Source: Ischnura elegans (Eukaryota; Arthropoda; Insecta; Odonata; Coenagrionidae). Taken from it: a stretch of 64,000 nucleotides of DNA. The DNA lies in the NCBI RefSeq assembly GCF_921293095.1, contig NC_060252.1, forward strand, positions 79,070,866 through 79,134,865, written 5' to 3'. A model generated the notes under the pieces. It worked only from the letters and a program-made list of their open reading frames with translations. It was not told where the DNA came from and ran no database searches. A program made the translations under genes and the position numbers. The number at the start of each line of letters is the position of its first letter. Positions within the stretch are counted from its first letter, which is position 1. Of the stretch, positions 6,690 to 43,695 are shown in pieces.

Positions 6690-9600
6690 GGCAAAATCCT
6701 ATCATCACCTCCTCGCGGTGCCGGCTGGATATCCAACCAACGATGAAGGTCTTCGACGTCAGACGGAGCGACGCGTCGGTCGAAGTATTCTCGGTCGCAT
6801 AAATATGCAATGTCGAATCAAACTTTGGATTGTAAGGTTAGGGCGTCCCCCGCAAGCGACGCGCGTCGTCCTCGCCCGAACGGCGTGAGAAATATGCGAA
6901 GGCTCCCCGCTAATGGACGGAGCGGGCTAAAGAAGCGAGTCCAAATTCGACTAGCTACTATCAACATCGGTACAATGACTGGAAGAAGTCGAGAACTGGC
7001 ATCCGCCCTGAAAACACGCCGTGTCGACATAGCATGCGTCCAAGAGACGAAATGGAAAGGAGCCAAGGCCAAGGAGATCGGGGAAGGATTCAAGCTGTAC
7101 TACAACGGCATACGGACTAACCAAAACGGCGTCGGTATCATCGTCAAGAGCAATCTGTGTGACAACGTTGTCGAAGTCACCCGCATCTCCGATCGTATAA
7201 TGTCCATCAATATCAGTGCCAGTGAAACCACCCTCAGGGTCATCAGTTGCTACGCTCCGCAAACGGGCTGCCCCGATGACATCAAGGAAGAGTTTTGGGA
7301 TCAGCTGGATGACCACATCCGATCGGTGGGACCTGATGAACACCTGGTGATTGGGGGTGATCTGAATGGCCACGTTGGATTATCACGCGACGGTTATGAA
7401 CATCAACATGGCGGATGCGGGCACGGAGCCCGCAATAATGATGGGATTAGAATTCTTGACTTCGCGGAAGCACACGATCTTGCCGTAGCGAATACGTTCT
7501 TCAAGAAGAGGCGATCACATCTGCTCACGTAAGCCAGCGGTACACGTGCGTCCCAAATCGACTACTGGATGATACGCAGGCGAGACTTTAAGCTCGTGGT
7601 CGATGTAAAAGTTTTACCATCCGACAACGTCGCCCCACAACATCGTCCCCTCGTCATAGACTTGCGGCTGGACATTGGGCAACATCGACGAGTGCGCACG
7701 ACCGGACCAGCCCATATCAAGTGGTGGCGATTAAACGATAACAAAAATCAACTGAAGATAGCCCTAGATCATCTGAGTGTCGATCCCGACCAGCCGGTGG
7801 CTGACCTATGGCGCAGTGTAGCGAACCAGATCCAAGAGGCCGCCTGTGAGGTCCTTGGGCGAACGAAACCAGGAACACGCTTTATCGATAAGCAGGTGTG
7901 GTGGTGGAATGAAGACGTGCAACGCATCGTCAAAGAAAAGAAGATGGCCTTCAAGAAGTGGCGCGAGACAAACCATATTGTGGACTATGAACAATACCGC
8001 ACAAAGAAATCTGCCGCGAAACGAGCAGTTGCTAAAGCAAAGACAGCACACTACGACCAGCTGTACGCCGACTTAGATACACCTGGAGGTGAAAATAAGA
8101 TCTACCGCCTTGCCAACTCCCGACATCGAGCAACTCAGGATTTTAGCCAGGTCAAATGCATCAAAAACGACGATCACCAGATACTACGAGACCCACCTGC
8201 CATCCTTCGGCGCTGGAGAGAACACTTCTCGGCCATCTGTAACACAGAATTTCCCCACCCACCGATCATTAGCGCGGACCCTATATCCGGACCTGTGCAA
8301 CACATCAGTGAAGCTGAGGTAGCCGCCGCTATCAAGGAGATGAAGAATGGAAAGGCAACGGGCCCTGACGACATTCCAGCGGAAGTGTGGAAGCTACTTG
8401 GCCGCAACGGCGTTGTCATCCTCGCCGAGTTATTTAACAACATCATCATTGACAACGAAGTTCCCTACTCCTGGCGGACCAGCATAACTGTGCCCATCTG
8501 GAAGGGTAAAGGCAACGTCGCAGAATGCTCCAACTACCGCCCGATCCGGCTTTTATGCCACGCCATGAAAATATTCGAAAGAGTGATTGATGCTAGGCTC
8601 AGACACATTGTTCACATCACACCCAACCAGTGTGGATTTGTAAAGGGGACTGGCACAACAGATGCAATACACGCAGCTAGACTGCTCTTGGAGAGGCACC
8701 GAGAGAAGAACAAGCCAGTGCATATGTCTTTCCTTGATCTGGAGAAGGCCTTCGATCGCGTGCCACACGACCTTATCTGGCATGCCCTCAGATCTCACGA
8801 CGTCCCTGAAGTCTACGTGTCATGGGTGAAGCTTCTCTACACCAACGTCACCAGCTCCGTCCGTTGCCCATCAGGAATATCACCGCCTTTCCCAATCACT
8901 GTTGGCGTCCACCAAGGATCGGCCCTCTCTCCGCTCCTTTTCATCCTGTGCATGGACACAATCACGGCCTGTCTCCAAGAATCGCATCCTTGGTCACTAC
9001 TGTTCGCCGATGATGTCTTCCTTGCCAGCACCACCAGACCCGAATTACAGCAGCGAACTCTACTATGGAAGGTACGACTCGACAACTATGGGTTGCGATT
9101 AAACATAAAAAAGACTGAGTACATGGAGTGTGGGCCTCAAACCGATGGCACGATCAGCATCGACGGCGACGACCTTGAAAAGGTCGAGAAGTTTAAATAT
9201 TTGGGCTCTGTCATCAGCAACGATGGAAGCACAACCGCCAACACACGAGCTCGAATCAATGCAACATGGCTGAAATGGCGCCAAGTGACTGGCGTATTGT
9301 GCGACCGTCGAATGCCTGAACGATTCATGGCCAAAGTATACAAGACCGTAGTCCGCCCAGTGGCCCTATATGGAGCAGAATGTTGGCCAGCCACAGCAAA
9401 TCAAGAACAGGCCATGCATGTCATGGAAATGAGGATGCTACGATGGATCCTAGGCATCTCCCGCCTGGATCACATCAGGAATGAAGACATTCGGAAAAGA
9501 ATGGGAGTTGCATCGATCACAGACAAGATGCGGGAGGCTCGACTGCGGTGGTATGGGCATGTGGTGCGTAGTGATGAGAACTCCGTGGCCAAAACAGCAA

Positions 9601-9789
9601 TGCGGCTGAGTACTGAAGGACGCCGACCACGAGGACGACCAAAGATGCGCTGGCTCGACAAAATTAAGGCGGACATGAAGACCATCAACGCCACGTCAGT
9701 AGACGCCCTGGATCGAGCCAAGTGGAGAAGGCTTTGCAGAAAAGCGGACCCTGCAATAGCGCGGGACAAACGCTAGGAAGAAGAGAAGA
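6690..9789 (+). mobile_element. RTE-clade non-LTR retrotransposon, nearly full length
   Basis: The element carries one long reading frame (6,810-9,776) with a GC-rich leader before it. The 3' UTR is very short: the stop codon TAG is followed at once by the purine stretch GAAGAAGAGAAG. A tiny 3' UTR ending in a short simple repeat instead of poly(A) is characteristic of RTE elements. The 5' edge near 6,690 is set only by the base-composition change, so it may be some tens of bases off. Target-site duplications were not identified. Confidence 0.8.
6810..9776 (+). pseudogene. RTE endonuclease-reverse transcriptase, one in-frame stop
   Basis: A single frame of 989 codons encodes the pol-like protein of an RTE LINE. 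The N-terminal ~250 residues are an AP-like endonuclease: INIGTMTGRS, the metal-binding QETKW, GGDLNGHVG, then SQIDYWMIRR and the closing NVAPQHRPLV. The middle holds the reverse transcriptase, with SNYRPIRLL, SFLDLEKAFDRVP, GVHQGSALSPLLF and the catalytic LLFADDVFLAS. The C-terminus has the WYGHVVR and RPRGRPKMRWLDKI stretches typical of RTE. The frame is interrupted once, by TAA at 7,530-7,532, inside the endonuclease just after HLLT, where relatives have a tyrosine or similar. The halves are otherwise in the same frame, so this is a young copy with a nonsense substitution, or a sequencing error. GC content is clearly above the surroundings. Confidence 0.9.
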
Positions 9790-20513: not shown

Positions 20514-22801
20514 CCCTTTGCACTCAGAATTTTTCACCCCCTATACCAGTAGTCTACTCGGAATTATATTGTTAAAACCCCCTGAATTTGAGGATGAGTA
20601 TATCTTTTGAAATGAAGTTTTATATTTCTCTAAAACGAAGTGTTTATTAGACAAATCAGGCTTTCAGATATAGTAATAAGCATCAAATATTCATTAATCT
20701 CTAAATTTTTCCAAACAGTGATACCTTCTAAAACATTCCCCCACATGAAGCCTTGGGTGGTTTTCACATGTTTCGCAAAAGTAAATTGTCTCTCTTCTTC
20801 CTCCTCCAACGTTTCTTTTTGGACAAACTACACAGTCCTTGTGTTTCCTTTCAGAATGTGGCATGATGATATGGAGTTTTCCATTCAACCTTTGTAGAGG
20901 GTCTAATGGTTTTGGTCGGCCCCTGGGAGTTGTACCACCCATCCTGTAATCTCCAACAAGTTCTGCAACTAACTCCCTAATGAATTTCACATACGAAATA
21001 CACTTTTCACCTTTCATTTTTTTGCACTCTTTGTATAAAATGTACCAATTTACTGCACTAACTTCTAAGCCCCAGAAAAATAGCTTTCGCCACCATTTCA
21101 ATGTCTTTCTTATGAAACAATAGGTACTTGTATAGTGATCAGCAGTGTCTACGCCACCCATAAATTTGGTGTATTTCACAACGACTTTCGGCTTGACTAC
21201 TCTCTGAATTTCAGCACTACCTCGAACCCTCCTTTCCACTACCTCCGTTTCAGAAGTGTCCCAGGTGCTTAGTAATGTAACCACTCTTTTGTCCTTCCAT
21301 GAGAGGAGTAATGTGTCCCTGTCTCTATAGGCAACCAACTCTCCTTTTTTCGTCCTGGGATTTTTTATTAGGGCTGGGTTGTCTTTCCTGTTGGGCATCA
21401 GAGTTCCTGTCAAGTGGCACTTATATTTTAGCAGCTCCTTAGCAAGTGTTGCACTTTTGTAGAACCTATCAGTAAATACATGAAATCCCTGGGCTTCAGG
21501 AAGAGATTGCTTCAATCTGCCATAAAGTTCTACAACAATTTTTGAAGTAAATGGTAGATCAGATCTAGTAAGGGAGTCAGATGTTACAGAACCGAAGTAA
21601 GGAACAAAAGGATAGATGTAACCACATCGGGAATCTGCGAGGACATAGATACGAATTCCCCATTTGGTGGGTTTTTTGGGGTCGTACGTAATGAAGCGCA
21701 CCTTGCCCTTGAAACCCACAACAGACTTATCAATGGCTATCTCGCGCCCTGGACAGAATTTCTCTCTGAACTTCATATCTAAATAATTCAAAAACGAGCT
21801 GACCTTCTCTTTTCTGGTTCTTGTATCATTTATCCCCGCTTTTTCATTTTTTAGATGTAGCATCCAAAATATTTGCAAAAACCTTTCCTTTGTGAAGATT
21901 GCACGAAAAAATGGCACATGAGAGACAAACTCTAACGACCAATAATCCTGTATATTTGGTTGATGAATAATGCCCATGTTCAACATAATGACGAAAAATG
22001 CCTTCATTTCCTTAGCGGTGACGTCAGTCCAACTATTCCAAGTTGATCTCTTGGCTAGTATCCTATTTTGAAGTTTACTCTTAGCATAGATATTTGTTTC
22101 ACAGGCTATGCTTTCTATCAAGGCATCTGTAAAAAACAACTGAAAAAATTCAATGGGCTTCACACAGTCACCGGGAACCTGTGAACCAACGCACACTTGT
22201 CCAGTGGAGAAGAGATACCATTTCGGAGATTGGTCATTCACGCTGACATCAATCCATTTTGGCGTTAGTTTTTCACTTTGAATGTCATCGTCATCGCTTT
22301 CGGACTCATCTACACTGTCACTACAATAAACAATTCTTTGTAGTTTTCTACGTTTTTTATGTGCAACTTGGGTGTCACTTTCACTGTCACTTTTTGTCAG
22401 TTCCTGCTGATGAAATCGGCAATTCCTCCTTTTTGCAGGTTTACTAGGAACGGCAACAGGTTCAACTTGTGTAGATTTATGACTGTTGGATAATCCACCT
22501 TCATCACTAGAACTACTTCCGGTTATATCTTCACTTCCAAAGTAAAACTCACTGTCACTGCTTTCACAAAGAATTTCATCAACAAATTTGCTGAACTTTT
22601 CCATGGCTAACGCGTTGAGTTCTGGGATAGAAACTACAAACTACTACCTCTGTGAAGGATTCAGTTCCCATTTATTAGGTGTCATAAAGAGAGTGAGTTG
22701 AAATAGTAACGAAACAAATGTAAAAAATGTATACAAAATAATCAAGTAATAGAAATGAGTCATTCAAGCAGCGAGCGTATTGTATTCGGTGTGCTCTCGG
22801 A
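20514..22801 (-). mobile_element. piggyBac element 1, flanked by TTAA
   Basis: The left end is TTAA followed by CCCTTTGCACTCAG (20,510 on). At the right, TTAA at 22,802-22,805 is preceded by sequence whose complement reads TCCGAGAGCACACCG, an imperfect match to the left end. This gives a 2,288-bp element with the TTAA duplication diagnostic of piggyBac. It holds a single open transposase gene. The right boundary is less certain because the inverted-repeat match is imperfect. Confidence 0.65.
20694..22604 (-). CDS. piggyBac transposase, intact open frame
   Basis: A 636-codon intronless frame starts MEKFSKFVDEILCE. The N-terminal ~150 residues are acidic and serine-rich, with the basic patch KKRRKLQR. 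The core is the DDE_Tnp_1_7 domain. The three catalytic aspartates are recognisable in IAIDKSVVGFKGK (about residue 295), VFTDRFYKS (about 375) and FMGGVDTADHY (about 490). The last ~45 residues form the cysteine-rich domain CVVCPKRN...CETCENHPRLHVGECF, which binds the element's ends. The protein excises and inserts DNA at TTAA without a scar. Length and motif set match full transposases, and I see no stop or frameshift. It may be recently active or domesticated; the flanking ends favour a mobile copy. Confidence 0.9.
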   Translation of the reverse strand: MEKFSKFVDEILCESSDSEFYFGSEDITGSSSSDEGGLSNSHKSTQVEPVAVPSKPAKRRNCRFHQQELTKSDSESDTQVAHKKRRKLQRIVYCSDSVDESESDDDDIQSEKLTPKWIDVSVNDQSPKWYLFSTGQVCVGSQVPGDCVKPIEFFQLFFTDALIESIACETNIYAKSKLQNRILAKRSTWNSWTDVTAKEMKAFFVIMLNMGIIHQPNIQDYWSLEFVSHVPFFRAIFTKERFLQIFWMLHLKNEKAGINDTRTRKEKVSSFLNYLDMKFREKFCPGREIAIDKSVVGFKGKVRFITYDPKKPTKWGIRIYVLADSRCGYIYPFVPYFGSVTSDSLTRSDLPFTSKIVVELYGRLKQSLPEAQGFHVFTDRFYKSATLAKELLKYKCHLTGTLMPNRKDNPALIKNPRTKKGELVAYRDRDTLLLSWKDKRVVTLLSTWDTSETEVVERRVRGSAEIQRVVKPKVVVKYTKFMGGVDTADHYTSTYCFIRKTLKWWRKLFFWGLEVSAVNWYILYKECKKMKGEKCISYVKFIRELVAELVGDYRMGGTTPRGRPKPLDPLQRLNGKLHIIMPHSERKHKDCVVCPKRNVGGGRRETIYFCETCENHPRLHVGECFRRYHCLEKFRD

Positions 22802-28990: not shown

Positions 28991-31900
28991 CCGTAAAATG
29001 GGGTGACTTTGTGACAAGTTTTGCACTTTTTCACTCGCACGCTGATTGATTTTTAAGATAAACTGAAACGAATGGCGTCACAAGATAGCTTCAACTTTCC
29101 TTTACAAGATTATGTCTTCAAAAAATCTGTATCTTTAATATGAACAACTATATAAAGGGAAAACGTTGTCACAAAGTCACCCCACCCTGTGGGGTGACTT
29201 TGTGACAACATTTTTTTCAGGTTACAAAGTACAGGAAAAAATTAATGTCACAATTTCGACCAATTAAAAAGTATATTTACTTAATGTAAAAGTGTTTTAT
29301 GCTTTGGCAAAGCTACAACATTTTTACAAGCGTTGAAAAGGGATCTCCCTAATCGATATTTTTCACCTCAAAGAACCCTCGCTTTCCTACAGCTCTTGGG
29401 GGGTCGATGGCATACAAAACTTCTTCCTTAGAATATAAAATAGCATCTTCTTTAGTAGGCCACTTCCAGTACATACTGGTCCTCTCCATTACACTAACGA
29501 TGTATCCCTCGAGTTTTTCTTCCGTCACCCTTCCTGGAAAAAGTTTCCCTTCAAAGTTGACCACTACAAAATCATCCACTTTGAAGATATGTTTTTCAGG
29601 CGCCATGCCGTTGATTCCCAGGACGTCTTTAGCATTTGGAATCACCGTGGTGGGAGTCGTTTCAACATCTGAATCCTCCAAATTGCTGAAAGATTCATCC
29701 AGCACGTCGGGGTCACTGGGATCTTCATCCGTCCAGTTCTTCTTTCCGTCGTTGACTTCGTCTGAAGAGCTTTCACTGGCGCTGCTTTCTTCAGAGAAAT
29801 TGACTACCGGTACAGCCTTTTTCTTGCCACCGCTGGATCTAGAAGCAGGACTGGCTTTTGTCTTCTTCCCTTTCGGCTGTTCTGCCCTACTGGCTTCAAT
29901 TTCGGCACTTGAGATACTTTTGCCCGCTGGAACGGCGAGCCTTCTCCTTCTCTTGGGGGCCCGGCATCCTGTAACCTCTTTTCTCTTCTTGTTTAGTTCT
30001 TCTATAAAGATCTCACCAACCACTCCTGGTACGGACTGCAGGCTCTCTTCCAAGACGGCCTTCGGAAGTCTTCGGAGAACTTCCATTTTGTTGAGTGGAA
30101 AAATCCCAGTCTTCCTGAACCCTGACTGGAGATTTTTTATGATGTTCTCCTGCAGCTTGTCCATCATTTTCTTTAGCAGACCTGGCAGTTCGTCTTTTGG
30201 GACGGACGTGCACCGGCTACCGGACGTCGACTGCTTCCAATTGGACAAAATTTCACGCCAAATCAGTTTTAGAACTCTGAATATTGCGACATCTAGCGGT
30301 TGCAGTAGATGTGTCGCATTTGGTGGGAGTGCGATGAATTTTATCCCATATTTTTCGCAGAGACGAATAACCTCCAGGTTAATATGCGAACTCAAATTAT
30401 CGCCAATAAGAACTTTTTGGCCGTCTTGTTGTTTCAGTATGGGGAGCATAAGATTGACGAACCAGTCTTCAAACACTTGGTGATCGAACCATCCAGATTT
30501 AGTACGATTATACCGGGCTCCTTCAGGTCCATTGTCGGTCCAGGTCGACCACATGTTCTCGGCCTTGTAATTTATATATAGTGGAGCCAACTGTCCTGCG
30601 GCGTTCCCACAGACCATAATAGTAGTACATGCTTTCGAACAATTTTGTATCCGCTCAGGATATTTTGCTCCTCTTCTGACAAGCACTTTTTTGCTTCCCG
30701 GATCGTCCTGGACGTTTGTTTCATCATAATTCCATATTTTTTCTGGCGGAATATCCTCTAGCTCCTTCTCTAAATGCTGAAAATATTCGTCAATCACTTC
30801 ATTGTCAGTCGCGGCTCTTGCATAGGTGATATTTTTGGCGACGCGTTCGGAGAGAATATCCTTGTGCCGCTTCATAAATGACATGGCCCACTCTCTCCCA
30901 GGTAAGTTTTTATTAGTAAACGCGGGAACTTTTCTCCCGGTTCGATCAAGATATGATTTAACGACGCAACGCAAATCAAAAGACGTCATTGGGAAACCGT
31001 AAGCTGCCATTGCAATGGAATGAGCAACGAACGTATCCTCTTCTTCTTTTGTGAAAACAGGTTGACCCCCATGCTCTCTTTTAGGTTTGACTGTCTCTGG
31101 GCTTAGGTTGGCTGAACCTTTTATCTCTTTGGTTTTGTTCCACAAGGTGTTTCGATGAATATTGAATCTAAGAGCAGAAAAAATGAACGTATGAAACGGT
31201 ATACCGCACCGGTACCTGATTTTTTAATTCTGAGAAAAATGGCTTTTAAAAGATGTTTAATAGAAAAAATTTTCCAAGAATCTAAACATTATCAGATTTT
31301 TAAGAAGGTAGGCTTATTGCTTGCACAGACCCTTCCTTCATCAAGGAAAAATGCCAAAAGTTGCACATCGGGTTTAAATACCCGTTAAATGACAGCAAAG
31401 TTGGTATGAATGGCTACTAACCTTTCAGATGCTGCTCGCAGGGTCATTTTCTTTGTTAAAACCAATTTTACGGCCTTATTTAACGTCTCTGGAGAGTAAT
31501 TTCTATAGGATCGTGCACCCAACTTCTTTTTATAAGTCCTCATCTTCCTTTCAGTATTGTAAAAACAAAAAACATGATAAAATTTAACCTAAAGCCATGG
31601 TGGGGTGACTTTGTGACAAGTTGGCGTGTCACAAAGTCACCACACAAATTGCGTGCATTTCAGTTTTTTTGTCATATGTTCAACAAATATGGCTTGATTT
31701 AATCGATACTCTAGGATAATTTGCCCAACATATTAACAAGCATATGTACATACCTGTTTTAGATGTGTCTTGAACAGAAAAGTTTTCACGATATAAAGTT
31801 TCACTCCTTTTACGAAAGCGTAACAAGTAGTATTGCCAGGCAATGGCGTCGGAATGAACTACACGTGTGCAGAAGCTCCACCCGGCTTCCACTACATGGC

Positions 31901-33893: not shown

Positions 33894-34054
33894 TCATCGC
33901 CATGTTAATTTTCCTACAACTAGAAACCATGGGCACCCTAGCGCTACCACTCGTTCAAAAGAGGAACTATTTGGTGTCGGAAGATTGAGACAACAGCGCC
34001 CCCTGCCGATTTCAATTCGAACCTGTGGAACATTTGTAACCAGTATATAGGGGC

Positions 34055-35648
34055 CTTGGACAAGGATTTCGAATATTTTGGACAAATTAGAGAGGAGGGA
34101 GATTGGTCGGGAGTTACCTGGGACTTTGGGGTCTTTTCCGGGTTTGGGGAGAAGGATAACTTTGGCTTTTTTCCAGGGAGATGGGAAGTATGGGAGTGTG
34201 AAGCAAAGATTGAATAGATTGGATAGAAGGATAGGAAACTTTGGGCAACGGCCGGCATATCGGAGTTGGGTATTGCTGATGTTATCAAGGCCGGGAGCTT
34301 TTTTAACAGAGAGAGAGTTTAGTATGGCAAGGACTGCGGAAGGAGTGGAAAGAGTGACGTTGGCAATGGAGTGGGAGGGGAGGTTGTCTACATATTCGTT
34401 GACCGCCTCTTCAACTGGTGAGAGGGATTTATCAAGGGACATTGTATTTTGAAGATGATCAGCCTGAATTTCTACTTTTTTAGTGGGATCGAAGATTAGG
34501 GTTGAATTTAGAGAGATAGGGTGAAAGAAAATTTTATCAGTATTTTTAAGAGATCTCATTGTCTTCCATATGGATTTTGTGTCAAAGGGTGCTGGGTTGT
34601 CAAAGGTTAATTTTTTGATATGGTTTTCCCAGTTTCGGAGGTTGATATTAGTAATTTCCTTTTTGATGTCATTTGAGAGGCGGTTGTAAGTGATTTTATA
34701 TTGGGGTGCTCGTTGTCTTTGCCATAGCCTTCGGGCAATGTTGCGGCGCTTGATCATATTGACAAGGAATTGGGGGAATTTGGTGTGATCTTTATTTCGG
34801 GGAGTGAAGGAACGGAAGGCCAATTCTTTGGCAGAGGCTAAGGCGGAGGTGATTTTTTCCACCTGATTGTCTATGGTTGCGGGAGTAGAGTCTGTGATGG
34901 GATCGATTTTGGAGAGGGACTCGTTAAGGTGAACAGTGAATTTATCCCAGTCTGTGACGTTCATGGTTGAGGGGGAAGGTGGCTGGTTGTGTAGGGGAAG
35001 GGAAAATTTTAAAGGGAGGTGATCTGAAGTGAAGGAATAGATTACTGATGGAGTGAAGGAAATTGGTAGGTTATGGGCAAGGCCGAAATCGATGACGTCA
35101 CAGGATTTAGGGGAATAGTGAGTAGGTGAGAGTGGAGCCAGGACCTAGAAGTCTTTATTTTTGATATAGGAATGTAGTGTGTTTCCATGTTTGTTTGTCC
35201 TATTGCTGTTCCATATTGGGTGTTTACAGTTCCAATCGCCGAAGTAGACGCCGCTTGGAGTGTAGAAGAGGCGTTCCAAATCGTCCGCTGTGAATTTTTG
35301 GTTCGGTTTACGGTAGACTGTGAAAAGGTTGAGTGGACCGGCTTTGGTGTTTAACGAGATACCAAGAGCTTCGAATTTGGTGGGGTCTGGAGAGTTTAAG
35401 AGGGAGTGAGGGAGGGATTTCCGGATAAGGATTGCTACTCCTCCGCCACGTGTTAGGCGGTCCAGTCTGTAAGTATTGTGTGGAGAGTACAGTGTTTTGT
35501 CTGGTGTAAGATGTGTTTCTTGTAATAGAATAATGTCGATGTTGTTGTCAAGGGCATACTGGAGGAGTTCGTGTTTTTTAGCCAGTATGCCGTTGCAGTT
35601 CCAAGATATGCCGTTTAGTGAGTTATTGTTGTTGGGGTGTGTGTTCAT
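34055..35648 (-). pseudogene. LINE ORF2: endonuclease and partial reverse transcriptase, one in-frame stop
   Basis: ORF2 starts at ATG 35,648, sharing ATGA with the ORF1 stop. The endonuclease reads GISWNCNGILAKKHELLQYA, then LLQETHLTPDK, RGGGVAILIR, VYFGDWNCKHPIW and, past the stop, VIDFGLAHN and SDHLPL. The TAG at 35,145-35,147 follows NKDF and is the only stop in the frame up to the RT. The linker (about 34,960-34,450) leads into RT blocks KKAPGLDNISNTQLR, WKKAKVILLPKPGKDP and RPISLLSNLSKIFE. Beyond about 34,055 similarity ends, so the catalytic FADD box and C-terminus are absent. The endonuclease lacks any break except the stop, which may be a C-to-T change. Confidence 0.85.
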
Positions 35649-37518
35649 TGTTGGGCTTGGAGGAGTAGCATTTGATTGAGTAGGAATATTTTTCTTTCCA
35701 CTGTTGAGTGGAGAGAGAAAAGGTGGGAGCTTATGTCCTTGAACCAGGTGAGTAGTTCACTGACTTCGTTTTGGGGAGCGGTTGAAGGGTATAAGGAAGG
35801 GAATCCAGGGTTCGTGACAGAAGCGAAAGAGCGGGTAAGCGGGGGAGGCTGGGGAGCAGATTGCTGGTTGGTACTTGCTAGGCGGCGGGCTGCCATGGCG
35901 GCTTTCGCCGCTTTGTGTTTATCGCACCCGCGGTAGCTGGCCGTGTGTTCCTCTGCGCATAGCGCGCATTTGGCTGGAAGTTCTGGGTCTTTCTCACATT
36001 CAGTTGAAGCGTGGTCTCCAGCACATTTTACACACTTAGGTGGGAGACTACAATGGTTTTTTGTGTGCCCTATGGCTTGGCACCGGTGGCATTGTACCGG
36101 TATGGCAGGTTTCTTAAATATGTCTATTTTTATGCCTACTCCGGCAATGTGCTTTGTTGCCATGAATTTGGCGGCATCAATGGTGTTTTCTGTGATAATA
36201 TGTATGGTTTGGGTAGGGTATTTGGGAACTGAGAGCGTTCCTTGATCACGTAATCTTTGAGATGGTCTAGTTGAGTAGATACGATGGCAGGAGAGAACGG
36301 GGAATCCTAGTTGTTGTAGGTCAGCAAGGATTTGTTCCTCTGGAATCGAGACAAAGATTCCGCGTAGTGCGAATTCTCTTCTCCTATTTTCAGGAAGAAA
36401 GTATGTATTGTAGGGTATGTTGAGATGTTTGAGTGTGTTTTGTGTGGCAAGAAAGTCGGCGGTTGTTGAATATTTGATTATTGCTGTGTTTTTGGATGTT
36501 GCGTGGGAAACTGGTGGGAATTCGCAGTTTTTTAGCAGTTGGGAGTGTAGAGTTGGCCATTTGGAGGTGCCGGCCAAGTGAATTGGAGGGATGTTGGATC
36601 GTTTTTTGGAAGTGTCGTGTGTTCTTTGCAAAGTGCTAGCTTCAGCATTGTTATTAGTAATGGTTGGTGATGGGCTGGTTGAGAGGAGATCGGCTTGTGC
36701 GATAATTGCGTGCGTTTCAGTGATATTGCTGCTATGAGGGATGGGAATGGTACTTGCTGGGCTATAGGGGGATGAGGTTGGCCTAGGGAGGCGGGAGTAG
36801 GGTTGTCAGAAGTTACCAGTGCTGTGGGAACGGGTTTTTGAGATTGCGTGATTTTGGCCCTCTTAAGGGCCACTTCGGTTTCCGCTTGTCCTAGGACAAC
36901 GGGAGTCAGGTTTTCGTTATTGTAGGTGAGTGGAGATTTCATTTCTGTAATAATCTCAGAATTGGTCCTCTTAAGGGCCGGGGCTAGGTTGCCTTGAGGA
37001 GGCGCCTTGGAGGGGTTTGTTAATCTTTGAGGTTTGGGTTCAGGGGTGTTTACTGGATTTTCATTAGCCTTAGACTTTTTCCGAGATGTCTTACTGATGG
37101 CACCTTTGTTTTTGGCGTTATTGTCGTTGTCAGGAGCCAGAAGGGCGTATTTACTTGGTTGAGCAAAAATTGGGGTGACTATGACATTTTTTCCTCTGCT
37201 GCGCGAGGTGGGGTTTTGGGATTTGTTGTCCAGACTCTTACATGGGGGGGTTTGCGACTTTTGCCTCTGGCTGGCAGGGTTGGCAGGAGGAGTTAAAGTG
37301 GTTGGCGGTGGTGGAGCTGGTGTCGCAGCTGGAACGGGGTTGATTGTTGCGACGGGATTCAGCTTTACTGTTGTCACGGTGGCATTTAAGGTCCCTGCGA
37401 GGACCTCGAGGGCGTCCGGTGGTAGCCTGGCAATCAGGTCAGTGATCGCCCGCAGCAGTGCCGCGGGGTCATCACCGGCCGTTGTCTCGGTGCTCGGTTG
37501 GGCCGCCATGGACTCCAT
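35645..37518 (-). pseudogene. LINE ORF1 (gag-like RNA-binding protein), one frameshift
   Basis: The frame starts at ATG 37,518 (MESMAAQPSTETTAGDD) with a proline/alanine/threonine-rich N-terminus. The C-terminal half (frame ending at 35,645) holds a region ending KIDIFKKPAIPVQCHRC, three zinc knuckles (CHRCQAIGHTKNHC, CVKCAGDHASTEC, CALCAEEHTASYRGC) and a proline/serine tail ending LLQAQQ. The two halves are in different frames. The change lies near 36,780, upstream of the point where a frame readable as SSPYSPASTIPIPHSS begins. The stop codon overlaps the ORF2 start as ATGA. The protein would package LINE RNA. It belongs to the same family as the ORF1 at 15,637-16,178. Confidence 0.8.
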
Positions 37519-39030
37519 GGTGGCCTGTTGTCTCGTTGGGGAGGACAGGGGTGGCTTTACGGGCCTAACTCCCTAGCGAGGGGACCCGGCCGGGTCCCCC
37601 AGGCGTGCAATGAGTTAGACTCTAGTGCCTGGGGTAGCGGCCGGGACAACCTGGGGAGTCGCTATTGTGAAAAGGCACCACCCGGAGGTGATAACCACGG
37701 TGACCGGGTTCGATCGGTAGGTACGAGCCCAGTCAGCCGCGGCCCCCCGGGTGCCCTTTTAGCGACGGGAGTGGCGAAGAATGCGCTGCCGAAGCAGTGC
37801 TTGAAGGCGGCCGATGGTGATGCAGTAGAAGCGGCTGAATATCGACTTCACGGTAGAAAAGGCCCTTAAGAGGGCCAATGTGGCGAGAGATTCGGCTGCT
37901 GCGCTGGACCAAGTCCTCAGCTGGCTGAGCTCTTGAGGGCGCTCGGCTTCTCTGGTCCTCCGGAAGCTGTCCAGATGGCTTCCAGAAGATTTTTGGGCTG
38001 ACCGTTGTAGACCACGTGTTGGCGTTGATTTGTCGTTAAAAACGTTACAATTGACTTATTCTTATACTTATACTATGGATTATCAATAAAATACATCAGT
38101 AAAGAAAAAAAAACATGTCTATCTTCTGCAGCTCTTTAACCTGCAAAGAAACATAAGAAATAATTAAAGTCATCTCCATTCTAGGCATTACCAGTCTTCA
38201 CAAATCCCAGGAATCGTTGGGTTTGTTGATGGTACTCATGTGGCCATAAGAGCACCATCTGAGAATGAGCACCTCTATGTGAATAGAAAGTCTTTTCACT
38301 CCATTAACCCATTACTGCCCAAATGATTTTTTTTACAAAAATTTCAATTTTTTAACCTGAATTACTTTATATGAACTCATTGAAACAAAAAAATGATTTT
38401 TTAAATTTTTTGCATTTTTCAATCTAAAAATATTTACATGCAACTCAAGTTGCTCGTGGGCACTTGAGTGAACTAAATTCAGGATCTTCATTAGTATTGT
38501 AATGAGAAAGATACTTTTTTTTAAATGTTACATGTTATTCATTTTATTCTTTTATATCACTAATTCGGATGCATCATAGATACAATGAGCATAAAATATT
38601 AGACAGTGACATTTTTTTAAACAGTTTTTACCGGGTGTTTCCACCATGCACAAAATATTTCGTCATTTCTCATGAAATGCAAGAAAACATTCTGGGTGTA
38701 AAGAAATATTACATTTTTTGCAAATGCAAACTGCTCTTTTTTACACTGGGCACATACTTTATACTTTGATGACCCTTTAGTTATCAAATGGTCTAAGTGA
38801 TCAGTCCTCATTTCCTCAGCCCCTGTATGTGATTGTCTAAAACCACGTCCAGCAGATGGAGATCCAAACTGCCTCATCATGTACAGAGCGCATTCTCGTC
38901 GAAACTGTAAATTGTCTATTGTACTCCCCACATGTCGGTGTAACAACCAGCCCTGAACACATGACACGTCTACTGCCCAGGCAAAAAATGGCCACCACCA
39001 CTTTTTTGTACTGATGTTCACCCTGTACAT

Positions 39031-39422
39031 TAGGCCGGCCCTTATTTTTCAGAATTGCGAAAAGTTATGTTTTCCTAGTCTCAAAATGATCCAAATGAAG
39101 TTTATATTCACATGTTAAAATTTGGTTACTTTAAAATAACGGCAACCCGTGCCCCAAGGGCCCTAAGTACTGAGGGCCCTCAATTGAGTTTTTTGGAGCA
39201 GAAAAGGTGTTATCCCTATGTAAAACGTAAAAGTAATGCCCTTTAGGGCCGATTTTCTGTTTGTTTTGACCTATCTCTAAGCGTTTACGAGATATCGTCC
39301 GTCGTAATGCAATCCACCCCCCAGGGCGCAACCCCGCACCGCGACGCCGCTGAGGTACGGCCGCACCACTTACTAGAGACTTCCCCTCCACCCCCTCCCC
39401 TCCTTTGACAAAGTCTTTGCTC
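39031..39422 (+). repeat. Left terminal inverted repeat of the unclassified element
   Basis: It matches the complement of 41,163-41,552 almost base for base, including the subterminal AAGGGCCCTAAGTACTGAGG block and a GC-rich stretch near 39,310-39,400. A read-through frame exists in both copies only because the repeats are nearly identical; I do not treat it as a gene. Confidence 0.9.
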
Positions 39423-39966
39423 CCACTGGCAAGATCTATCCTCTGAAGAAATGTGCTTACTTTAGGAAGAATTAAATTGCAATGACAATATTTCCAATCC
39501 AATTGATCAATTTATTTTCACGCTGGTCATGAATTTCTGTAGATATCAACCAAAATAAAATACATTTTCAGAGTACTTCTAATCTTTCACTGACACCCCA
39601 TATTTGGCACATAAAGTGTCTTTGCGCATGTTAGGGGTTGTGCTATGATGAAAATTCGCACTTAGCAATACATTTTTAAAGCTTTCTTCCTAAACTGACT
39701 TAAAGCCTTGAATTTGTTTCACCCCTCACTCTACACAATCATTTACCATTTGAGGACCGCGAATAATTTGCAAATCGTTCTTGGTTGTTCATCCCATCCT
39801 CGCATGTGTGAATCAAAGAATGGAGTGCATATTTACGATGTATTAAATAGCTTTCTCGAATTAGTAGTGACAAAATTGGATATAGATACCTTAGTCATGT
39901 CTTTATGTTCATAGAATGCCTTCTTCGGTGGATCATATTTTCCCTCACATGTCCTCATACGGAGTA

Positions 39967-40474
39967 TCACGTTTTCCTTTTCACACCTAGAAAAGGATCC
40001 GTCAAAGAATGCCAGGCCGACAACTCCTCACTCAGGTACCACAAGTGGTTTGAAAACCTCTTTTGTCCTGCTTTCGCTATGTCCAGGTTAACACTTTTGC
40101 AATTAACAAATCTTTTTAGGAACTGAGGGTCACTGTTGGGAGCAGGTGCACCACAAGGAGCGGAGAACCACATCTTTTTCTATCTTCTTGAATATATTGA
40201 AATCTATTCCACCAATAACTGCATTTCGTGCTCCTCTTTGATTGCGTAAGAATTTTACTTCTTCTGCCCAAGCACATTTATCCGAGAGATTAACTTCACT
40301 TTCCTCCTCGTGCGTCAAAAAATCAATGGTACCGCGCCTTGCAATGTCAAACAAATCATCAAGTTTTGTTACGAAAGATTCTCTTCTCTTTATATCCACT
40401 ATATTTCGAGCTTTCTCAATATTTCGTCGCACGTTCAACCATTCTTTGCGTAATTTTTCTAGCTTTTCAATCAC
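39967..40474 (-). pseudogene. Gene remnant inside the unclassified element, unknown arthropod family
   Basis: Two overlapping minus-strand frames. The first (40,474-40,130) reads MIEKLEKLRKEWLNVRRNIE, then ESFVTKLDDLFDIARRGTID and FLRNQRGARNAVIGGIDFN. The second (to 39,967) reads PNSDPQFLKRFVNCKSVNLD and RFSNHLWYLSEELSAW. Both wordings recall uncharacterised arthropod (especially hemipteran) proteins with KLDDLFDIA and FSRHLWYLSEEL blocks that are repetitive in genomes. The frame changes near 40,170. No nuclease or DNA-binding motif is evident. Its presence inside long inverted repeats suggests the family is carried by this element. Confidence 0.5.
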
Positions 40475-41162
40475 TTTATTTTCCGTAATAACAGGAATTC
40501 TCGTTTTGTACCATGGATGAAACGCATTTCTTACGGTTTTTCTTGCTCTAAGTCAAATGCATTTCGAACCCATTAGGTGATAGAGAAAACACACAGTACT
40601 ATTCTCACTGTAGGTAACCTTCAGCCAAGTTTTTCTTGACTTTCTTTTCCAACCAGTTCAATGCCTTGATTTATTCTTGATTTCATGCCTTTCCTTGTTG
40701 GCCTATTCTTAAAATGAACGTCACGTGTATTCATGATAAACTAGTTATTTCGCTTTAATTCTCCTTACATCCTGAAAAACTTAAAACTTACTATCCTTTG
40801 CACACTGTACACCAGAACTATCTCTCCACTGTCCGTGAACTGACCGCCTCGTTTCTTCTTCCTTGAATATTTCTATCTACTGTTGGAGCCTTGGAAGCCC
40901 AACTCATCTCCATCATTCCTTTGTAATTCACAGACTCAATGCTTGTAATATTTTGTATATAAAGAGCATTTTAGAACTTGCTGGAATGGTTCACGGTCGT
41001 ATGGTGGCAACAAATTAAGGTTTAAGGGGTCGGTACCCAGTGCATAGGATGGCACTGAAGGGTTAAAATTGACATTGTACGCTTAGACAACATTAATCAT
41101 GACACGAGAGGAACAACCTGTTCAATTCTGTACCAATAGCATGTAAATATTGTCATCAGGAG

Positions 41163-41552
41163 GAAAGTCTTTGTCGAGGGAGGGGAGGGGGTGGAGGGGA
41201 AGTCTCTAGTAAGTGGTGCGGCCCGTACCTCAGCGGCTCCGCGGTGCGGGGTTGCGCCCTGGGGGGTGGATTGCATTACGACGGACGATATCTCGTAAAC
41301 GCATAGAGATAGGTCAAAACAAACAGAAAATCGGCCCTAAAGGGCATTACTTTTACGTTTTACATAGGGATAACACCTTTTCTGCTCCAAAAAACTCAAT
41401 TGAGGGCCCTCAGTACTTAGGGCCCTTGGGGCACGGGTTGCCGTTATTTTAAAGTAACCAAATTTTAACATGTGAATATAAACTTCATTTGGATCATTTT
41501 GAGACTAGGAAAACATAACTTTTCGCAATTCTGAAAAATAAGGGCCGGCCTA
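41163..41552 (-). repeat. Right terminal inverted repeat of the unclassified element
   Basis: Inverted partner of 39,031-39,422. Differences by eye are few: for example, one base near 41,304 and a small cluster in the GC-rich part near 41,225-41,245. This supports recent insertion. Confidence 0.9.
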
Positions 41553-43145
41553 CTGTACATGGCCAATAGTTGGTCGCATAAATCTACTCCTCCCATGAAT
41601 TTGTTGTACTCTGCAATGGCAAGAGGAATAGGAACAGTAACATTTTTTTTCTCTTTCCTTGAGTAACGGTTTACAACCTTATTTCCTCCCTGGATACAAT
41701 TTGTCATCATTGTTACCACTGCATTATCGTTCCAGCGAGTAGCAAGTATGTCACCATTGGTTCTTTCCTCCATCGTTCCTCTAGCTTCTTTTTTGAATTT
41801 ATTTTTTTCTGTTAACCCATAATCTGCATACTTCACTCGATTTTCACGTAGTGTGCCGGTACCTCCAATTTGCATATCCTTTAAAGTGTACAGTAACTTT
41901 TCAGATGTGAAAAGGTTATCGAAGAACAGCCTTGAACGTTTTTCTAGTTGACTCTTTTCCAATAAGCCCACAACTACATCACCTCCTGGCCCAAGATCAG
42001 ACTTCGGTATTCGAGTACACAATCCTCCATAGGGCTCTGCGTGAATTATATGGCCATTTGATTCTGCCAGACACCATAGTTTGAATCCAAACCTAATTGG
42101 TTTTCCTTTTATAAACTGCTTCGCGCCATGTTTTCCATAATATGGAATTATAGTTTCATCAACACAGCAGTTCATCCTTGGAGGTAATAGCTTAAAATTT
42201 CTGTTTAAAAATTGAAATATTGGCCGTATTTTATATAATCTATCAGAAGTATCAAGGTTTGTGTTGTCTGCTAAGTGTAAGTAGCGGAGAATATCATCAA
42301 ATCTATTCCTTCTTATTGTTTCTCTGACAATATTGACATTGCAGTCATCATCTGTGTTCCAAAAGAGGCGTTTTCTGGGTAAAAAAAATGCATATATCTC
42401 TTCACTAGCTACGCTGAATCCATGATTTCCTCTTTAAGTTCGCATACATATTTGTTTGTTCTACTATGTGCAACACGAAATCCTCAGAAAAGAAAACCCT
42501 AAAGGAATCAAAGGGTGACTGATTGATCGAGAATCTACTCAGAGTTAGAGGGGGGATAAGCTCAGGTAATTTAAAATTTAACTCAGTTTAATCGCGCGAC
42601 CATTTTTTTGTTGAATCTTTTAACTTGCGTTTTTTGGCCATCCTTTTGCACCCTTTGAATGTCGACGGTTGCTCTAACTGCGATTCTTCAGGCAGAGTTT
42701 CCCTCGAATGAAGCTGTCCTTCTGCATCCAAAACACGTCGTGGTAGATGCGTTGGATCTCCAGTCACTTCCGCATCTGATTCATCGGAATCTTCATCCGT
42801 AATAGCCTCAGCACCTTCCTCCGGTCCAGTTATAATTATTGTCTGCGGCCTGTGTTCGTCACCCTCTTCCTCTAGTATATTTATTATTTCATTTACGGTC
42901 AGACGCTTTCGAGACCTGAAAATACATCATTTTAATTTATATTTACACGGAAAATCGTAAATTCATATGATATAAATAACTTGTTAAATGAACCTACATT
43001 TGAAAAGAATGTCTCAATAGACGAACAGTCTCAGCAAGAACAGCCCTCACTGCAAATCACTCTGCACCTACAAATGCTAATAGCAAAAAAGCTAGTTCAT
43101 AATTGTTATAGACGTTTAAAGCATGGAATTGATCAATATTATGTA

Positions 43146-43695
43146 AGGTAATGTGGGGTAAGTGCGACCCCTAAATAGCATACATCAATTTTAACTAGCT
43201 TAGGAAAATTTTCTAGGTTTGCTAAAACATGAGATTCAATGTATAATATGTAGGTGAATCACTGAAAAAGATAATTAGATTAAAAATCCTCTCTCTATAC
43301 GGCGGGGAAAGTCCCCCCATCTAAACTAAATATAATACCCGAGTTCCAAAATTTAAAGTAAAGCAAGGAAAACCATTCCATAAAGAAGATTAATCAAGAT
43401 ATATTTCTTACCTTACACCTCCGATGCGTTTATTCTTAGAGAACTGCGGTGTCGCCTCTCATCAAAACCAACTAAGACTACGAGATGAATGGACGGGTAT
43501 ATTTCCTAAGCATGTGAAACGAGAACTAAAGGGATAATTATTATAAAGTTGTTGGCTCTGGTTCCATTACAACGTATGGAATATGTTGCACTGCCGCCAT
43601 CTGCTTTGAGAACAGAAATACGATCTTCCTCAAGGGAGGTCGCACTTATCCCGCAGTCGCACTTACCCCGCAGTCGCACTTACCCCACCTCACCT
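43146..43695. mobile_element. Short inverted-repeat element (MITE), TA target duplication
   Basis: The left end reads AGGTAATGTGGGGTAAGTGC from 43,146; the right end is its imperfect complement ending at 43,695. Both are flanked by TA. Length is 550 bp with no coding capacity. Near the right end the unit GTCGCACTTACCCCGCA (or close variants) is repeated three times (about 43,638-43,688). Ends and TA duplication suggest a non-autonomous Tc1/mariner or pogo relative. It lies in the 5' part of piggyBac element 2. Confidence 0.65.

Follow-up and report, generated by a model that had tools for sequence, protein, structure and literature searches.

Within 64,000 bp of the Ischnura elegans genome (NC_060252.1, positions 79,070,866 to 79,134,865 of the forward strand; hereafter the window, in which all positions are counted from its first letter), a 2522-bp element with long inverted repeats (39031-41552) interrupts a piggyBac-like frame, raising the question of which kind of DNA transposon it represents and which enzyme moves it. 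A sequence-only reading of the window had proposed that the protein remnants inside the element belong to a distinct transposon group with long terminal inverted repeats. Our analysis points, with a probability of roughly 60%, to an internally deleted copy of a family, here family A, whose intact 4-kb relatives encode a DDE transposase that would act by an hAT-like mechanism and form a separate, unassigned CxxH DDE lineage.

The window element and its sister copies

The element begins with TAGGCCGGCCC (from 39031) and ends with GGGCCGGCCTA (to 41552). Its left inverted repeat (39031-39423, plus strand, 393 bp, beginning TAGGCCGGCCCTTAT) and its right inverted repeat (41159-41552, minus strand) are 97.97% identical over 393 positions of a gapped alignment, while the ungapped alignment comprises 340 bp at 99% and 80 bp at 88%. 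An exact 8-bp target-site duplication, CTGTACAT, flanks the element on the left (39023-39030) and on the right (41553-41560). When one copy of the duplication was kept and the flanks were joined, an open piggyBac-like frame ran across the site (...GGVDLCDQLLAMYRVNISTKKWWWPFFAWAVDVSC...); at the occupied locus this frame enters the element and then stops. The interrupted frame, which is the target and lies outside the element, is on the minus strand, with the 5' part of the piggyBac-like transposase at 41561-42433 and the 3' part, in which it continues, at 39022-38617. The near-identical repeats of about 390 bp, the exact duplication and the restored frame described by the sequence-only reading were thus all recovered. 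Of 34 sites compared, 28 show these ends between exact 8-bp duplications, so the insertion is not a chance arrangement, and we regard it as a confirmed, genuine transposon insertion. Its age is another matter: the earlier reading took this copy to supply a datable boundary, but the arms may have differed before insertion, so that their divergence alone does not date it.

The internal protein remnants had also been correctly described. Two blocks, KLDDLFDIA and FSNHLWYLSEEL, lie in minus-strand open reading frames (40130-40552 and 39967-40179, respectively); aligned with the protein of an intact relative, they cover its residues 1-187 and 573-775. By tblastn, the N-terminal remnant occupies 40175-40734 and the C-terminal third, with the HLWYLSEEL and AER regions spread over several frames, occupies 39582-40176, both on the minus strand. 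At the junction near 40175 the catalytic core between residues 187 and 573 is absent, and with it the part that carries both aspartates, the CxxH motif and RW.

The host genome (1.72 Gb) contains at least 41 matches to the inverted repeat and at least 150 to the N-terminal protein block. Flanks were compared at 34 distinct family A sites with both ends, namely 32 sites left after removing copies with an identical 30-bp flank, plus C14 (whose flanks C16 shares) and C19; single-end copies were excluded. This comparison, in line with the check that had been suggested, gave an exact 8-bp duplication at the 28 sites mentioned above, one mismatch at four and a worse fit at two, and none of the 26 exact duplications in the 32-site set extended to 9 bp. 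The target is strongly patterned: 26 of the 28 exact sites fit nTnnnnAn (T at position 2, A at position 7; consensus nTGTACAn), 20 of 28 contain TGnnCA, symmetrising gives a palindrome centred on TGTACA, and G or C is preferred two bases outside the duplication. One 774-bp copy (L018:361-1134) consists of nearly nothing except the two inverted repeats face to face, within an exact 8-bp duplication, TTGATGAT. Some copies on different contigs (L012, L013 and L014; C14 and C16, in L072-L075) have both flanks and element in common, which suggests segmental duplication or duplicated assembly and not new insertions.

The window copy is typical in having lost its core: of 42 distinct loci that matched the protein, 41 are likewise without it, a figure biased to the window type because the loci were collected for their resemblance to the window copy. 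(Of the 52 entries searched, L018, L021 and L023 gave no protein match; the other 49 included the window copy itself, L029, and six duplicate retrievals of loci, without which 42 remain.) Thirty of the 41 core-less loci align exactly to residue 187 and again from 573, and the other 11 end nearby or are without a piece. In the N-terminal frame left in 41 copies, the ratio of nonsynonymous to synonymous changes was 0.98 times the neutral expectation for all changes (1.19 for singletons, 0.78 for changes found in two or three copies, 0.88 for those in four or more). With that ratio, and with one stop in the majority sequence of the frame, the idea that deleted copies retain a selected, repressor-like protein is unsupported. 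Together, the core loss and the neutral leftover frame make the deleted copies look like passengers moved in trans. By its sequence, then, the window copy reads as an internally deleted, non-autonomous member of the cut-and-paste family A, and its leftover frame would be passenger sequence.

Intact elements and related families

A full-length family A element (L059:258-4286, 4029 bp) has repeats of about 410 bp that are 98.8% identical, with ATGCCCAC on either side. Its gene has four exons with GT-AG introns and runs uninterrupted to a spliced protein of 775 aa. A search with the 187-residue core segment returned at least four loci at 100% identity, the next being at 40% (among the best 150 of 189 candidates), and the flanks of these loci defined three distinct insertions: C2 (ATGCCCAC), C14/C16 (ATGGGCAC, same flanks) and C19 (ATGCTTAG). 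That the cores are identical although the sites differ indicates recent movement. The expectation that full copies consistently encode the KLDDLFDIA/HLWYLSEEL protein was thus borne out for intact 4-kb elements at three distinct sites, but not for the core-less majority of the loci.

Three further families widen the group. The spliced protein of family B (L060, L061), about 757 residues long, is 34% identical to that of family A over the core segment and is encoded between TAGGGTGTCCC ends with a 13-bp repeat; both copies have 8-bp duplications (GTGAGCAG and GTGTCCAC), and both sites fit nTnnnnAn. The arms measure 342 + 137 bp in family C (L068, L069), with TAGGGTGGCCC ends, and 180 bp in family D (L070, L071), with TAGGGTGTCCC ends; both copies of each left 9-bp duplications, one of those in family D with a changed end base, so that each 9-bp figure rests on two copies. 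All four families have TAGG ends, each its own, and the inverted repeats of A, C and D range from about 180 to 480 bp. With 8 bp in A and B versus 9 bp in C and D, duplication length varies within the group, and the 8-bp signature proposed from the window copy applies to the first two families only. Likewise, the proposal of a distinct group with long inverted repeats stood as regards a DNA-transposon group (an intact copy between such repeats, a predicted DDE fold, no library assignment), whereas long repeats do not define it, given the 13 bp of family B.

The stretch from the second aspartate to CxxH is missing from the family D copies L070 and L071 and kept in L078 and L081, so a core-deleted form seems to have been amplified in family D too. 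In L069 (2-295 and 3971-4336), a family C element appears to be nested in a long frame that, by eye, resembles a retroelement reverse transcriptase.

These families bear on an account in which the elements captured the gene for the KLDDLFDIA protein as a passenger and owe their movement to some unrelated enzyme, as might be supposed from the broken, neutrally evolving pieces of it that most window-family copies hold. Four divergent families, however, each carry the protein inside their own TAGG ends; it is uninterrupted in the full-length copy, distinct insertions share an identical core segment, and its predicted fold and conserved acidic residues are of the DDE recombinase type. We consider capture highly improbable, and take the protein as the candidate transposase of the group.

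The candidate transposase and its kinship

The protein contains, in order, two aspartates (D1 and D2), CxxH, RW and AER, which are invariant wherever the alignment covers them, AER in all five families that cover its position. In the predicted core (predicted local distance difference test score 75.1), which has an RNase H topology, D1 follows strand 1 (VHWDGK), D2 strand 4 (DTT) and CxxH strand 5; beyond CxxH comes a long, largely helical insertion that bears the conserved RW. The best Foldseek match of the core was the Mos1 strand-transfer complex (E 9.9e-5), P transposase was among the rows (E 0.012), and retroviral integrases outscored Hermes, to which the RNase H core is nevertheless alignable. 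The models thus predict an RNase H/DDE fold, in which the catalytic glutamate would be the one in NDxAERxV. HLWYLSEEL was set aside as the motif of the catalytic glutamate, as family B has D there and AER is invariant in the five covering families.

Library searches (Pfam scanned with pieces of families A-F, NCBIfam and PHROGs) gave no transposase match: all Pfam and NCBIfam matches were below cut-offs (best E 0.002, a domain of unknown function), and PHROGs matches had no transposase name. As a positive control, two hAT proteins of the host (L084, L085) matched PF05699 at 2.1e-23 and 4.6e-20. The family B protein found nothing in a sequence search of the Protein Data Bank, where the core profile had one irrelevant match (E 0.88), and it had no relatives in IMG/VR, prokaryote contigs or phage records, collections that are viral or prokaryotic and thus say nothing of distribution among animals.

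Several likenesses point to hAT. We take the tryptophan of the hAT block TRWNS to be Hermes W319. In hAT enzymes, CxxH and tryptophans near the active site are tied to hairpin formation, although the equivalent of W319 proved non-essential in Kat1 (PMC4763223), hAT hairpins arise on flanking DNA (PMC6900584), Hermes favours 8-bp nTnnnnAn sites (PMC10368747), and hAT terminal inverted repeats are quoted as 10-25 bp (PMC3942097). Our group shares with hAT the 8-bp duplications of families A and B, the Hermes-type target in the same two families, the motif order D-D-CxxH-RW-ER, a D1-D2 distance of 65-67 residues (66 in the two host hAT proteins) and a DDE RNase H core with CxxH and a helical insertion, the core being predicted and its glutamate placed from sequence only. 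The statement that none of the usual superfamilies with 8-bp duplications has such ends was accordingly too strong, as target pattern, motif order and aspartate spacing resemble those of hAT.

A rival reading takes the group for a true but very divergent hAT lineage, with the same enzyme and flank-hairpin mechanism, that gained its long inverted repeats secondarily. Several differences make this unlikely, if by no means negligible. No scanned piece of families A-F matched a hAT Pfam model (PF05699 dimerisation, hAT RNase-H) or the BED finger, a missed hidden Markov model match that alone does not exclude remote kinship, whereas both host hAT proteins match PF05699; D2 lies 29 residues from the C of CxxH in the group versus 19 in the host hAT proteins; families C and D leave 9-bp duplications (4/4 copies); the repeats are far above the quoted hAT range (about 390-410 bp in A, at least 180 bp in C and D, B alone being short); and the retroviral integrases stand above Hermes in the Foldseek list. 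Because of the lack of a hAT model match, a profile score barely above that of a reversed profile, the long repeats of three of the four families and the 9 bp of C and D, we have not filed the group as hAT, while considering it, by analogy, hAT-like in mechanism.

Several observations weigh against a separate lineage of this kind, or against parts of its description. In hhalign the group scored 24.1 with the two hAT proteins versus 23.2 with reversed columns, a score equalled or exceeded in 7/300 permutations, and in a core-only profile alignment to hAT 9/500 permutations reached the observed score; these weakly positive alignments mean that separateness from hAT is not proven. The AER glutamate falls outside both predicted models, whose underlying alignments have little depth (18 and 14 rows, drawn from about six families) and whose confidence is low in the insertion region. 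The flank-hairpin step is argued by analogy. Finally, identity between the repeats of the intact element and those of the window copy is only 85.6%, so that an autonomous partner of the window's own type was not among the copies found.

Other superfamilies share single traits with the group. CxxH, long duplications and, in many MULEs, long inverted repeats make MuDR/MULE the most plausible member of the remaining CxxH superfamilies to which the group might belong; the scanned pieces, however, matched no transposase model of Pfam, whether MULE, MuDR, P or any other, and the family B repeat is only 13 bp, which leaves such a membership improbable. Merlin has 8- or 9-bp duplications and repeats of 24 to 462 bp, comparable to those of our group, together with a conserved terminal GG and a DDE_Tnp_IS1595 domain (PMC8101967), in contrast to the TAGG ends and the lack of a DDE_Tnp_IS1595 Pfam match among the pieces scanned. 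The P element shares duplications of about 8 bp and the D/CxxH motif (PMC3706591), besides its place in the Foldseek rows, yet no THAP or P-type RNase H Pfam match was found in the same pieces. Dada likewise belongs to the D/CxxH group of DDE transposases; it is described as leaving 6-7 bp duplications, with U6 and U1 families that have no terminal inverted repeats (PMC3706591), unlike the 8-9 bp and the inverted repeats seen here. Kolobok and KDZ were compared through Pfam only.

With a separate CxxH DDE lineage as the preferred reading, the enzyme would bind the TAGG ends, excise the element, probably via a hairpin on flanking DNA as in Hermes, and insert it, with a stagger of 8 bp (9 bp in relatives), into the palindromic target nTGTACAn, and would move deleted copies such as that of the window in trans.

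Rank and meaning of the group

Whether this lineage amounts to a previously unrecognised eukaryotic CxxH-type DDE superfamily, one whose members have TAGG ends, duplications of 8 or 9 bp depending on the branch and, in one branch, the palindromic target nTGTACAn, is a more tentative matter, to which we give somewhat less than even odds. Eukaryotic DNA transposon superfamilies in Repbase number 23 (PMC10045372) or 24 (PMC12730594). Among the papers listed, judged by titles and the beginnings of abstracts, we found no description of the group, a coverage that mostly excludes subscription journals and preprints; the group may already be catalogued in Repbase or Dfam, for instance among unclassified families with 8-bp duplications. 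The superfamily list would be lengthened by another lineage with uninterrupted, very recent copies, and repeats whose present annotation is a protein of no known kind would gain names and boundaries. KLDDLFDIA-type proteins are presumably common among uncharacterised arthropod proteins; if the superfamily is real, a class of repeated 'uncharacterised' animal proteins would be accounted for, and the group might prove to be sister to hAT within the flank-hairpin enzymes. Such a lineage would also allow related transposases to be compared, in nature, for the way in which they set a stagger of 8 or of 9 bp, and its recent full-length copies make it amenable to laboratory testing.

Elsewhere in the window, a G+C-rich, strongly skewed stretch (33897-37572, minus strand) contains three long minus-strand frames (416, 386 and 346 aa). 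Long open frames at 6747-9773 (plus strand), 20697-22640 (minus) and 29352-31223 (minus) probably belong to other mobile elements, and a short tandem array (17-bp unit, 2.8 copies) lies at 43639-43686.

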